Translations under genes and position numbers: made by a program | Notes under the pieces: model-generated | Database searches by the model: none | Told to the model about the DNA's origin: nothing | What the model saw: only the letters and a program-made list of their open reading frames with translations | Shown: positions 33,827-42,900 of the stretch, piece after piece | Layout: every line of letters begins with the position of its first letter | How positions within the stretch are numbered: the first letter of the stretch is position 1 | Assembly (NCBI GenBank): GCA_902557645.1 | Contig: CACEAP010000001.1 | Coordinates: 1 to 64,000, forward strand | Direction: 5' to 3' | From: an uncultured SAR86 cluster bacterium | Lineage (GTDB): Bacteria; Pseudomonadota; Gammaproteobacteria; Magnimaribacterales; D2472 | Length of the DNA: 64,000 nucleotides

Positions 33827-33847
33827 AAATGATAATCATTATCATTT
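33827..33847. promoter_or_regulatory. Fur box
   Basis: AAATGATAATCATTATCATTT, a 21-nt palindrome about a central base; matches classical Fur consensus (GATAATGATAATCATTATC core); 33 bp upstream of a TonB receptor. Confidence 0.92.
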
Positions 33848-33880: not shown

Positions 33881-36052
33881 ATGAGTATTAATATAAAAGT
33901 TTTAAATTCATTCGTATTTTTAGCATTATTTAACCTTAGTGCATATGCTGAGATGGAGATGAATGCCATAGAATCTGTGACTATTGTTGGCTCTAAGGAT
34001 GATTTAGCTGGTGCTGCTTCAGTAGTATCTAATGAAGATTTAGAAAAAATGATCGATACAGATATTCAAAAGATTTTGACAGCTGTTCCTGGTGTTTACA
34101 TGAGAACAGAAGAAGGGTATGGACTTAGACCAAATATTTCTATTAGAGGAACTGCAATAGAAAGATCTGGAAAAGTTACAATCATGGAAGATGGAGTTCT
34201 TGTAGCTCCTTCTCCTTATACTTCATCAGCTGCATATTATTTTCCTACAACTGGAAGAATTCATGCGGTTGAAGTTTTAAAAGGACCAGCTGTAATATCA
34301 CAAGGGCCTCAGACAATTGGAGGTGCAATAAATTTAATTAGTACACCAATTCCAGAAGTAACTTCTGGGAGGATTGTTCAGGAGCTTGGTGACAATGGAA
34401 TGTCTAGAACTCATGCTTATTATGGAGGCACACTAGGTAACTTCGGTGCTTTATTAGAAGTACATGAGCATGCGAGTGATGGTTTTGATTCAATAGCAAA
34501 TGTTGGCGGTGATACGGGTTTCGACAAATCTGATTTACTCTTTAAAGCTAGATACGAATCAGGCAGTCATTCAGTAACATGGAAAATGGTTGATTTAGAT
34601 GAGACCTCCAATCAGTCATATGTTGGTCTAAGTCAAGCTAGCTTTGATGCTAATCCTAGAATGAGATACGGTGCAACTAAATACGATACTATGATGAATG
34701 ATGGTGAACAGTCATCATTAACATATGTTGGCGATTTTGATAATTTTGATGTTGTCTTTACTTCATGGAGTAACGATTACCATAGAGACTGGTTTAAAGT
34801 TAGTGACTTTAATAATAATTCTGATCATGGTGAAAGAGATGACATTAATGAGTTAATTAGTGATGCTAATAATGGCAGCGCTAATGCTCAGGCAATTCTT
34901 GATGGAGAGCTTGCTGTCCAAATCGAGTACAAGCATAACAATAGATTCTATACAAATGAAGGTTATCAATTTAATGTATCAACTGAAGTTGGAATGCATG
35001 CTTTAACTTTTGGATATCGAGATATGGAAGATTCTGAAAGTAGAATTCAAGCATATGAATATGCTGATCAAGCAGCTGATGGGTCACTATCAGCTTTATA
35101 CGGTTATGTTGGTTTAGGTGGAAGTAATAATAGATTAAGAGAATCTAGTGCGACTTCATACTATTTAGAAGATACTATGGATTTCGGCAAGCTAGCTGTA
35201 ACACTTGGGTATAGATCTGAAGAGTATGATCAGCGTCACAGACGCTGGGATGAAGGAGCTGGACCAGGCCTAACTGCTGTTAGAGAAACTATTGTAAGAG
35301 ATACATTTGCTGAAAATGATCACACTACAACTAGTTTTGGAGCCACTTATGACTTCAGTGACAATATTGTTCTTGTTGCTGGTTTTCATGGCGGCATGAC
35401 TCCAATGTTTGGAGCTGATCCAGAAGAAGCAGACAATATGGAGCTAGGTTTTAGATACTCAGATGGTAGTACAAATGTAGAAGCATTCTATTTTTCCAGT
35501 GAATATTCAAATTTAGCGGCTGAATGTACTTTAGTAAGTGGAGCTGCATGTGATGCCAATGAATCTGCTGTATTCAGTGGTGGCGAAGCTGATGTAAATG
35601 GGCTTGAGTTTAGTGGTTCATGGATTCTTGAAGGAGATGGAATAACATATCCAATTGCAGTCACATATACAACCACAGATGCTACTTTTAATAATAGCTC
35701 TAATAGTGACTATTTTGGAACAGTTGCAGCTGGAGACGATTTACCATACATACCAAGTTCAGCTTGGTCGCTAGTTGCTGGCTTTGTAAAGGACAACGGC
35801 CTTAGTGGAAATTTAAGAGTTATAGATATTGGTGGTTCATGCTCAATAGCTGCTTGTGGCACCTATAATAAAATCGATGCTCATAGAATTGTTGATCTTA
35901 ATTTAAGAAAAGCATTAAATGAGTCAATGGATTTATATGCAACTCTTGAAAATGTTATGGATAATGAAGATGTTATATCAAGAGCTCCGTCTGAAGGTGC
36001 TAGATCGCAAAAACCAAGAACAATGAAAGTTGGTTTTTCATACAACTTCTAA
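33881..36052 (+). CDS. TonB-dependent receptor, FecA-like iron uptake
   Basis: ESVTIVGS TonB box, YGLRPNISIRGTAIERSGKVTIMEDGVLVAPSPYTSSAAYYFP, C-terminal GFSYNF; Fur box upstream. Confidence 0.92.
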   Translation: MSINIKVLNSFVFLALFNLSAYAEMEMNAIESVTIVGSKDDLAGAASVVSNEDLEKMIDTDIQKILTAVPGVYMRTEEGYGLRPNISIRGTAIERSGKVTIMEDGVLVAPSPYTSSAAYYFPTTGRIHAVEVLKGPAVISQGPQTIGGAINLISTPIPEVTSGRIVQELGDNGMSRTHAYYGGTLGNFGALLEVHEHASDGFDSIANVGGDTGFDKSDLLFKARYESGSHSVTWKMVDLDETSNQSYVGLSQASFDANPRMRYGATKYDTMMNDGEQSSLTYVGDFDNFDVVFTSWSNDYHRDWFKVSDFNNNSDHGERDDINELISDANNGSANAQAILDGELAVQIEYKHNNRFYTNEGYQFNVSTEVGMHALTFGYRDMEDSESRIQAYEYADQAADGSLSALYGYVGLGGSNNRLRESSATSYYLEDTMDFGKLAVTLGYRSEEYDQRHRRWDEGAGPGLTAVRETIVRDTFAENDHTTTSFGATYDFSDNIVLVAGFHGGMTPMFGADPEEADNMELGFRYSDGSTNVEAFYFSSEYSNLAAECTLVSGAACDANESAVFSGGEADVNGLEFSGSWILEGDGITYPIAVTYTTTDATFNNSSNSDYFGTVAAGDDLPYIPSSAWSLVAGFVKDNGLSGNLRVIDIGGSCSIAACGTYNKIDAHRIVDLNLRKALNESMDLYATLENVMDNEDVISRAPSEGARSQKPRTMKVGFSYNF

Positions 36053-36919: not shown

Positions 36920-37330
36920 GTGAAAGACAAAATTAAAGCTCGCTCGGTTCCCTTTTCACAAACTCGTTCACGCCACGCTAGTGAAACTGCTGAAGATTAT
37001 GTTGAAGCAGTCATGGAAATGATCGAGGAAAAAGGTGAGTGCAGGGTGTTAGACCTAGCAAGATATTTTAATGTTAGTCATGTCACTGTTTCTCGAATAG
37101 TTAAACGATTACAAGATGAAAAACTATTGTATTCCAAGCCTTATAGGCCAGTAGCTCTAACTGCTAAAGGTTTTAAACTTGCAAAACAAGTAAAAGAGCG
37201 GCATGAAATTGTTTTAGCTTTCTTAATTGAGCTAGGTGTTGATAAAGCTAATGCACAAATTGACAGTGAGGGTATTGAACATCATGTAGGCTCAAAGACG
37301 CTAGCTGCAATGAAAAGATTCTTAAAATAA
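36920..37330 (+). CDS. mntR: Manganese-responsive DtxR-family regulator MntR
   Basis: RHASETAEDYVEAVMEMIEEKGECRVLDLARYFNVSHVTVSRIVKRLQ ... LIELGVDKANAQIDSEGIEHHV. Confidence 0.9.
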   Translation: MKDKIKARSVPFSQTRSRHASETAEDYVEAVMEMIEEKGECRVLDLARYFNVSHVTVSRIVKRLQDEKLLYSKPYRPVALTAKGFKLAKQVKERHEIVLAFLIELGVDKANAQIDSEGIEHHVGSKTLAAMKRFLK

Positions 37331-37561
37331 TTTAAAAATAACCCTACCGACAACTGTATCTAGATCATGTGTCATTTCATATACTGGGGAATGATATGAT
37401 TTATTGTCTCCTGATATTTTTAATAAATTTCCTGATATAGATCGAACTCTTTTTACTACTTTTCCAAGTTCATTAGTTTCTATGACAATTACATCATCTA
37501 CATTTATATTTTTTGTTTTTAAACAAACAACATAATCATTTGGCTTATAAGCAGGGAGCAT
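37322..37561 (-). CDS. sodX: Nickel-type superoxide dismutase maturation protease (S26/S24-like)
   Basis: Short peptidase-like ORF (MLPAYKPNDYVVC..., VVKRVRSISG) directly downstream of the NiSOD gene, as in known sodN-sodX pairs. Confidence 0.75.
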   Translation of the reverse strand: MLPAYKPNDYVVCLKTKNINVDDVIVIETNELGKVVKRVRSISGNLLKISGDNKSYHSPVYEMTHDLDTVVGRVIFKLF

Positions 37562-37595
37562 ACTGACTCCTGCAATCTTGAATACTCTTACCAGA

Positions 37596-38057
37596 TTACA
37601 ATACCGGTACTACTATTTCTAAATTTGGAGCATAAGGTGAAATTTTCTTTTCAGTTTTGACCTCTTTTGTTGCCCAAAACATTTCAGCAAAATCATTTAT
37701 CTTAGCAAGCATACTTAAACCATCTTCTCTATGAAGTCCTTGCTTACATTTTGAACCATCCATCATAATTCCATGCACCAATTCATGCACTCCTGGACAT
37801 TGTTCTATTTGAGGAGCTTTAAAGTAATCACCCCAAATTATTGTTATTTCATTTTTAGCAATTACAGCATGATCTTCTTTCTGTTGAACTAAACGTGTAA
37901 ATTTAGCTAAATCATCTTTAGAAGACACAGCTTCTGGCATTTCATTTATTAAATCAATAAACCTAATAACACTTAATACTGCATATTGAGCTGCACCGGG
38001 ATCATAAACTCCACAAGGTATATCACAATGAGCACTTACTTTTTCTATCTTAAACAT
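37596..38057 (-). CDS. sodN: Nickel superoxide dismutase
   Basis: N-terminal Ni-hook HCDIPCGVYDP following a short MFKIEKVSA leader. Confidence 0.95.
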   Translation of the reverse strand: MFKIEKVSAHCDIPCGVYDPGAAQYAVLSVIRFIDLINEMPEAVSSKDDLAKFTRLVQQKEDHAVIAKNEITIIWGDYFKAPQIEQCPGVHELVHGIMMDGSKCKQGLHREDGLSMLAKINDFAEMFWATKEVKTEKKISPYAPNLEIVVPVL

Positions 38058-38363: not shown

Positions 38364-40538
<2,175 letters not shown>

Positions 40539-40561: not shown

Positions 40562-40592
40562 AAAACCTTTTTTTTACTAAAAAGGGTTGTTT
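40562..40592 (+). terminator. Probable katG terminator
   Basis: AACCTTTTTTTTACTAAAAAGGGTT imperfect hairpin followed by a T-rich run. Confidence 0.6.
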
Positions 40593-40618
40593 TATTAAAT
40601 GAGAATGATTATCATTTA
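40587..40618 (+). promoter_or_regulatory. Sigma70-like promoter overlapped by a Fur box
   Basis: TTGTTT (40587-40592), 17-bp spacer, TATCAT (40610-40615); Fur box AAATGAGAATGATTATCATTT (40598-40618) covers the -10. Confidence 0.8.
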
Positions 40619-40620
40619 CA

Positions 40621-40754
40621 CGCTCGTAGGTTATTATATTTAAGGTGTTGAGTTTCCCTTATCTACAAAGAACCTTAAAAGTGTGTTTTGATTGTCTCCT
40701 ATAAGAAATCAAAATAAAGTTTCTCTAAAAATATAACCTACGAGCAATTTTTTT
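40621..40754 (+). ncRNA. Putative Fur-repressed structured small RNA
   Basis: 13-bp closing stem GCTCGTAGGTTAT (40622-40634)/ATAACCTACGAGC (40733-40745); P2 TTTAAGGT (40639-40646)/ACCTTAAA (40672-40679); P3 TTTTGATT (40686-40693)/AATCAAAA (40707-40714); T7 at 40748-40754; no ORF. Confidence 0.7.
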
Positions 40755-42900
40755 ACCTAACTAACACCATCTCATCAATTAGCCTTGTATCTTTTTCGTA
40801 GACTTCAAGCGTCCATAATAGATATCTTGAATCTACATGAATAGTTCTTGTTTGCGGAATAAATTTATAATCAGAAATTATTGTTTCAAGCATTCCATCA
40901 AAAGCTAGGCCCACAAATTCACCTCGAGTATTTAAAGTTGAGGATCCTGAATTACCATTTGTTATATCTAAGTTAGATATGTAATTTACTGGAACACTAC
41001 CAACCTCATTAAATTTATAACTACCATATTCTTTATCACTTATTAATTTTAACTGTTTAACATCAACCTCAAATGGGCTAATACCTGTGTTTTTCTGGCT
41101 TATACCTTCAAGTGTTGTAAATGGTTTGTAATAAACCCCATCATTTAATTCAACCCCCATTACATTTCCAAAAGTAACTCTTAGTGTTCCATTTGCATCA
41201 GGATATATATCCTTATTTAAAGACTTATAAAATTTTCTTAATGATTTTATAAATATGGACTTATTTTTTTGCTGCAGGCTAGAACGTGCTTTATTTTTCT
41301 TTTCACGTTCCATTCCTTCCTCAAAAATCTCTCTAACAAAAACAATAAATGGATCGGATGATTTATTTAAGTCATCAAGAGAAGCATCTAATAACTTAAT
41401 TCTCTTATTTGTATCTAATAGATCTGAAGGATAAGCATACATTTCATCTACTACAGAAACAGTATTTTCATATGGCGCATCTAACTCTAAAAGTCTACTG
41501 TATGATTTTCGTCTATCTTTACTATCAACATCTCTATATCTATTGAGTCTATATAAAAAGATACCTTTATCTACTTCTGCATCAAATCTATATTCCATAC
41601 TTCTCATTCTATTAACCAATCTTTCATAATCTCTTTCTTGATATCCTGGCTCTCTAGCGCTATTTGGCTTTGTTTTTTCATACGCATGTCTATATAAAGT
41701 TGAAGCTGTTCCAATAAGGGTAGAGCCCCCATAATACATATTATTAAGACTCTCACTATTTACTTCATTGGTAATTTCCAACAGATTATCGATTGCATCT
41801 TTTTCAGCAGAAGTACCGCTAGCTTCAATAAACTCAAGGAAGCTATTCCAATTTTGCCTTTCCTGCTTTAACAGATTAAAGTTTTTTGCTCCTTCAATTT
41901 GACCAGATATTTTTTTATAGTAATTCTCATAGCCACTTATACTGCCTCTATATTTAAGTGCTTTTGCCTCATCATTTTCTGTTAGACTTCGCATCACCTC
42001 TATACCTGATTTTAAGAATTCTACATAATTTTCAAATCCAAATTGAACATCAAATCTAATTTCTGGATAAGTTAACAATCTATTAGTTCGGCCAGGATAT
42101 CCAGCAATCATGACAAAATCATTTTCCTTAACACCTTTTTTAGATATTTTTAAGAAATTTTCAGATTGATATGGAACATTATCCTGAGAATATTCTTTAC
42201 TATTATTATCAGGACTAACATATGCTCTCAGAAGAGCAAAATCACCAGTATGACGAGGATACATCCAGTTATCTATTTCCCCACCATATTCGCCGATTGA
42301 TTGAGGCGGGGCATAAACCAACCTTACATCTTTAATAATTAACTTTTTAATTAATTGATAGGTTTCGCCACTATAAAAACCTCTAACTTCACATTGAAAT
42401 TCTTCACTAGTTTCACAATTTTTAATTAAATTTTTTCGGTTTGTCTGAATAATCTGATATCTATCATTTTCAGACTGAGAATCATTAGTACCTTTTAAGA
42501 CTTCATTTGTTACATTGGTGCTTTCTTGGGTTATATAAACTCTAGCTCCAGGTGCAGATGGAGCTTCTTCACTTAAACTTTTTGCTAGGAATCCTGTTTT
42601 AAATAAATCTTTTTCCATTCTCTTTGCATTAAATTGCAAATAAGAACCTTCAATACAATGATAATTTGTAGCTATAAGGCCTGAATTAGAAATAAAGGCT
42701 GCCGAACAACCACCTAAACTAACAATGGCATTTAAAGGATGCTCAAAAAGATTACTAAATTTTTTAATATTACCTTTAAAGCCCGCAGCTCTAATATCTT
42801 TTTCGATATTTGGAAGTTGAGAGGGTTCCCACATACCTTCATCTGCAACAATAAAATTAATAGGAGTTAGTAGTAAGATAAAAAATAAAAATCTATTCAT
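40753..42900 (-). CDS. S46-family dipeptidyl-peptidase (Dpp7/Dpp11-like)
   Basis: DEGMWEPSQLP, SLGGCSAAFISNSGLIATNYHC, ITNGNSGSSTLNTRGEFVGLAFDG. Confidence 0.93.
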   Translation of the reverse strand: MNRFLFFILLLTPINFIVADEGMWEPSQLPNIEKDIRAAGFKGNIKKFSNLFEHPLNAIVSLGGCSAAFISNSGLIATNYHCIEGSYLQFNAKRMEKDLFKTGFLAKSLSEEAPSAPGARVYITQESTNVTNEVLKGTNDSQSENDRYQIIQTNRKNLIKNCETSEEFQCEVRGFYSGETYQLIKKLIIKDVRLVYAPPQSIGEYGGEIDNWMYPRHTGDFALLRAYVSPDNNSKEYSQDNVPYQSENFLKISKKGVKENDFVMIAGYPGRTNRLLTYPEIRFDVQFGFENYVEFLKSGIEVMRSLTENDEAKALKYRGSISGYENYYKKISGQIEGAKNFNLLKQERQNWNSFLEFIEASGTSAEKDAIDNLLEITNEVNSESLNNMYYGGSTLIGTASTLYRHAYEKTKPNSAREPGYQERDYERLVNRMRSMEYRFDAEVDKGIFLYRLNRYRDVDSKDRRKSYSRLLELDAPYENTVSVVDEMYAYPSDLLDTNKRIKLLDASLDDLNKSSDPFIVFVREIFEEGMEREKKNKARSSLQQKNKSIFIKSLRKFYKSLNKDIYPDANGTLRVTFGNVMGVELNDGVYYKPFTTLEGISQKNTGISPFEVDVKQLKLISDKEYGSYKFNEVGSVPVNYISNLDITNGNSGSSTLNTRGEFVGLAFDGMLETIISDYKFIPQTRTIHVDSRYLLWTLEVYEKDTRLIDEMVLVR

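Follow-up and report, generated by a model that had tools for sequence, protein, structure and literature searches.

A candidate Fur-repressed small RNA gene with a closed three-stem fold beside katG in a genus of SAR86 bacteria

Introduction

In Proteobacteria, iron-sparing small RNAs (sRNAs) have mostly been described as clients of Hfq, and both RyhB and PrrF depend on it. PrrF1 and PrrF2 of Pseudomonas and NrrF of Neisseria are Fur-controlled, iron-responsive sRNAs of Proteobacteria. In Escherichia coli, RyhB pairs with the iscRSUA mRNA, which leads to loss of the iscSUA part of the message (PMC6497325). Farther afield, the iron-starvation sRNA IsaR1 of Synechocystis acts on mRNAs of iron proteins in a lineage whose Hfq has altered RNA binding (PMC6202907), and Caulobacter has both an iron-starvation-induced sRNA, RusT, and an Hfq-independent one, ChvR (PMC11005374).

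The element considered here lies in a window, by which we mean the whole stretch of 64,000 nucleotides that was analysed, from an uncultured SAR86 cluster bacterium. A preliminary description had taken it for a functional analogue of RyhB and PrrF. Like RyhB, it has a Fur-box promoter, forms a stand-alone gene and is predicted to pair at translation starts of the isc operon. Unlike RyhB, it is closed by a terminal stem (P1), its predicted sites take in iscR and iscU too, its host lineage lacks Hfq as far as profile searches can tell, and it has no match to RyhB in sequence or in Rfam, the RyhB covariance model giving no hit at E values as high as 10. It would stand beside PrrF1, PrrF2 and NrrF in its mode of control, but its architecture differs from theirs, and the PrrF model (RF00444) reached 14.6 bits against a gathering score of 90, and that in the Fur box region only. 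IsaR1, at 68 nt and directed at photosynthesis, is different again, and the element shows no resemblance to it in Rfam; RusT, unlike the present element, needs Hfq, and neither RusT nor ChvR was matched in the Rfam search. More generally, Rfam searched at the gathering threshold and at E up to 10 returned nothing credible, known non-regulatory families included. Matches in phage records were restricted to the Fur box part, viral contigs gave no match to the element, and our literature search found no paper to the point on sRNAs or on Hfq in SAR86.

Hfq (PF17209) was found in none of the 75 SAR86-order genomes that are at least 85% complete, G000 among them, and in none of the five genomes of the genus that carries the element (g1), with E. 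coli and other controls positive, although a profile search could overlook a remote Hfq-like protein. ProQ was likewise found in none of the five congeners by a profile search that detected the E. coli control. Dependence on Hfq, shared by RyhB, PrrF and NrrF, thus does not extend to this order in any detectable form. Of the proposed analogy, the Fur box and the structure stand; the preliminary description overlooked both the missing Hfq and, as set out below, a terminator that is not conserved. The element falls outside RyhB and PrrF by sequence but probably works like them without Hfq.

Results

Locus, promoter and Fur box

The element occupies the intergenic site between katG (38385–40538, + strand; catalase-peroxidase, PF00141, E 2.4e-73), its syntenic upstream flank, and a convergent S46 peptidase gene downstream (40753–42900, - strand; PF10459, E 3.2e-203), with which it shares its final two bases (40753–40754). 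The S46 stop codon (40753–40755) abuts the 3' end of the RNA, and read-through from S46 would yield an antisense of the entire sRNA. Close by are a nickel superoxide dismutase gene, a gene for a DtxR/MntR-type regulator and a TonB receptor gene with its own Fur box. Within the window, the regulator and then the convergent nickel superoxide dismutase fill 36920–38057, a small metal and oxidative-stress cluster beside katG, and a near-perfect Fur box (31.7 bits, 33827–33847) stands 54 bp ahead of the TonB-dependent receptor at 33881. We rejected a leader or riboswitch since S46, the nearest gene downstream, runs on the opposite strand and there is no + strand gene until cysE, 2.2 kb away.

A sigma-70-type promoter on the + strand (40587–40615) consists of a -35 element TTGTTT (40587–40592), a 17-bp spacer and a -10 element TATCAT (40610–40615), and a 21-bp Fur box AAATGAGAATGATTATCATTT (40597–40617, assigned to neither strand) overlies the -10, in agreement with the preliminary description. 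The spacing and the distance to P1 are identical in G001 and G004, and the same genome has a matching -35/Fur arrangement (L002) ahead of an iron-binding-protein-like gene. With a scoring matrix derived from SAR86 Fur boxes we scanned contigs C1–C8, which make up 1.205 of 1.249 Mb, leaving aside C9–C17 and the last ~1 kb of C7. This assembled genome (1.2 Mb) has three Fur sites above 30 bits and none between 17.6 and 31.7, the fourth-best site scoring 17.6. The three are the element's own box, at 32.0 bits the joint top score, one at C2:198177 upstream of a periplasmic-binding-protein-like gene, and that of the TonB receptor at 33827. A weaker Fur-like box (14.3 bits) at G000:C5:81722 lies 75 bp ahead of a gene recognised as bacterioferritin-like by eye alone.

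The Fur box was found in all five congeners, being weaker in G003 (22.4 bits), and a Fur gene in four of them; none was found in G003, whose assembly is 68% complete. The G001 sequence used amounted to 1.23 Mb. Fur-box-like sites also occur in other SAR86 genera, a few in each. All strong intergenic Fur boxes checked, in g1 and in other SAR86 genera, are followed by an open reading frame (ORF) within 250 bp except the element's; in G001, G002 and G004 no ORF follows the element's box in that range. The 32-bit Fur box thus overlaps the promoter of a stand-alone non-coding gene with no ORF behind it, and the earlier remark that the element holds no ORF of note was borne out, the longest frame having at most 19 codons and being interrupted in G003.

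A closed fold maintained on the + strand

The predicted +1 at 40622 is the first base of the 5' arm of P1 (GCTCGTAGGTTAT, 40622–40634, + strand as for all parts of the RNA), which pairs over 13 of 13 bp with the 3' arm (ATAACCTACGAGC, 40733–40745). The perfect inverted repeat already described is therefore real, and it encloses two hairpins. P2 (40639–40679) has the stem 40639–40646/40672–40679 and a loop at 40647–40671 with the conserved GAGUUUCCCUUAUC, and P3 (40684–40716) the stem 40684–40692/40708–40716 and a loop at 40693–40707 with the conserved CUCCUAUAA. The single-stranded linker J3/1 (40717–40732), with the conserved AAGUUUCUCUAAAA, constitutes a third exposed CU-rich segment, and the tail AATTTTTTT (40746–40754), with T7 at 40748–40754, is a possible terminator U-tract. 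Folding 40622–40754, nearly the interval that the preliminary description had advised, gave a stable + strand structure of -35.4 kcal/mol compared with -17.1 ± 3.3 for 200 dinucleotide shuffles (z = -5.5), none of which folded as low.

The element is present once, at the katG/S46 site, in each of the five g1 genomes examined, and was found in none of the 103 other genomes of the family. A covariance model built from the five copies and run on all 108 family genomes, with stricter filters that a diverged relative could escape, found no further copy. A repeat element (REP, MITE) was rejected in view of the one copy in each of the five genomes. Identity among congeners is 77–98% for the element against 70–85% for KatG. 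Conservation is highest in J3/1, J2/3, the P2 stem and the P2 loop and lowest in the tail; within J3/1, 14 of 16 columns are invariant across the five genomes.

The stems, whose loss in relatives would have told against the preliminary reading, are kept in all five congeners, and in a strand-specific manner. Within the 30-pair structure, all eight variable pairs in P2, P3 and positions 2–12 of P1 still pair on the + strand, while seven of them would hold A-C mismatches on the opposite strand. Of the eight, one shows a double change, one a U-A/U-G/C-G series (pair 65-93 in P3), and the other six vary on one side only, gaining or losing a G-U pair. In P1, pair 6-119 shows a compensatory T-A/A-T change, the two arms vary jointly in G000, and two pairs are G-U in relatives, which is possible on the sense strand only; the outermost pair of P1 departs from this, with A-C in three genomes, and the innermost pair is loose. 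Pairs are intact in 97% of cells compared with 31–50% for slid controls. A column-shuffle control (57/500) is weak with five sequences, and the case accordingly rests on the strand asymmetry and the conservation. Since pairs are kept on the + strand and seven of eight would be broken on the other, we conclude from the alignment that it is the + strand RNA that is under selection, that is, the conserved structure lies on the transcribed strand. Judged by its sequence, the element is a genus-restricted, Fur-box-driven gene for a structured sRNA.

Predicted targets

The three exposed segments were screened against start regions orthologous between G000 and G001, 931 in all, and the cost of opening the site was included. 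iscU, iscS and iscR rank 9, 25 and 30 of 931, and iscR-iscS-iscU ranks first of 405 runs of three successive genes on one strand, as it still does without the opening term. This gene-run test was conceived after iscU and iscR had been spotted. With 60 shuffled loop sets iscR-iscS-iscU was never in the top five, although 55 of the 60 gave an equal or better best run elsewhere, so that in size the top run score is unremarkable. The P2 loop is predicted to pair across the start codon of iscR (GUGAAACUCAC), a site that is partly coding sequence, and the P3 loop to cover the Shine-Dalgarno regions of iscS (AGGAGAU) and iscU (UAUAGGAG). The isc sites are retained in G000, G001 and G002 and weaker in G003; the G004 assembly yielded no iscU. 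In genera without the element the isc pairing is mostly weaker, with the exception of G027, where the summed pairing is similar.

The wider set, 19 genes homologous to iron genes of E. coli, was not enriched among the predicted targets (p = 0.16). Across the whole RNA, conserved 8-mer complements occur no more often than they do for shuffles, from which it follows that targeting would rest on particular operons. The RyhB-like iron-sparing role that had been suggested would be in keeping with iscR-iscS-iscU as the top predicted operon, but it gains nothing from the wider iron set. cysE, a strong candidate by raw J3/1 duplex energy, was rejected because it ranks 239th when the accessibility of the site is taken into account. 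These models single out isc as the likeliest target, an assignment that we make tentatively, at a little short of even confidence.

Discussion

On balance we consider it fairly likely that the element specifies a Fur-repressed regulatory RNA of the RyhB-like, iron-sparing kind. In this scheme it would be a gene for a trans-acting small RNA of ~130 nt. When iron is plentiful, Fur-Fe(II) would occupy the box across the -10 and silence the promoter; when iron is low, transcription would start from about 40622. The transcript might adopt a closed three-way fold in which P1 clamps the 5' and 3' ends while P2 and P3 display their CU-rich loops, and this closed fold perhaps would confer stability without Hfq. 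The loops would then pair with ribosome-binding sites and block translation, most likely through the P2 loop at the start of iscR and through the P3 loop at the Shine-Dalgarno sites of iscS and iscU, as predicted above. The outcome would be less iron-sulphur cluster production within an iron-sparing response.

A second scenario, which we regard as unlikely yet the best placed of the alternatives, retains a Fur-repressed + strand sRNA and moves its main targets away from isc, the CU-rich loops serving as general anti-Shine-Dalgarno seeds for mRNAs such as those of TonB receptors, gcvH, acyl carrier protein and quinone oxidoreductases. Many ribosome-binding sites do score well, including those of the TonB-receptor-like g0_819, g0_956 and g0_15, and the lack of enrichment of the iron gene set points the same way. 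Against this, isc is the top operon, with three adjacent genes within the top 30 of 931.

A terminator or 3'-UTR structure between the convergent katG and S46 genes, without any trans role, would fit the site as well as the T7 end in this genome. We find this improbable. The element has its own promoter with one of the three strong Fur boxes, a search for a simple terminator at the element found none, and the U-tract is not conserved whereas the loops are. The T7 end that had been noted is present in this genome, but relatives have CTTTCT or no T-run in its place. The observation that the poly-T occurs in the + orientation only held, and with no T-run on the opposite side a bidirectional terminator was rejected.

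The copy in G003, the most diverged of the five congeners, raises a different question. In it (L007, G003:C8 ~1477–1640) the interior between the P1 arms is reversed, while the katG side, the Fur box and the S46 side are unmoved. Decay or an artefact may lie behind this reversal, less probably a change of orientation that serves as a switch. An extra ORF of 152 codons, lipoprotein-like, stands between katG and the element, and the -35 is altered because this extra gene sits upstream. One could imagine a DNA element in which 12–13-bp inverted repeats border a segment that can invert and the Fur promoter lies beyond them, so that a flip acts as a sense/antisense switch; the joint change of the P1 arms in G000 would agree with this. 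We hold such an element to be very unlikely. The flip is a single case, and the assembly name AG-319-N19 suggests a single-cell genome, a kind in which amplification chimeras occur. Most of the genomes have just two Xer-type recombinases, no Fur box was found on the other side of the element in G003, and pairs outside P1 are kept too, for the + strand RNA alone. Substitutions of G003's own also keep the + strand pairs, by way of G-U, which implies that the flip is recent, reversible, or an artefact of amplification or assembly. In our judgement an artefact or a chance inversion is likelier than a switch, and that the sRNA gene should be an orientation switch, its fixed Fur promoter producing either the regulatory RNA or its antisense for phase-variable iron sparing, seems highly unlikely.

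A small protein gene, in the form of a GTG/TTG frame of 18–19 codons spanning P2 and P3, can practically be dismissed, since the frame, although open in four of the five genomes, is missing in G003, its codon changes replace amino acids, its Shine-Dalgarno spacing is poor, and the stems vary by wobble instead.

Irrespective of the details of targeting, a few aspects of the proposed Fur-repressed sRNA deserve attention. SAR86 is among the most abundant uncultured bacterial groups of the ocean, and iron limits much of the ocean. Since the assembled genome has just three strong Fur boxes, a large share of the whole iron response would fall to the RNA, which would also offer a defined 130-nt probe for SAR86 iron stress in metatranscriptomes. 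An apparently equivalent RNA in an order without detected Hfq would provide a test case for sRNA action without Hfq or ProQ, in which a closed fold may stand in for the chaperone.
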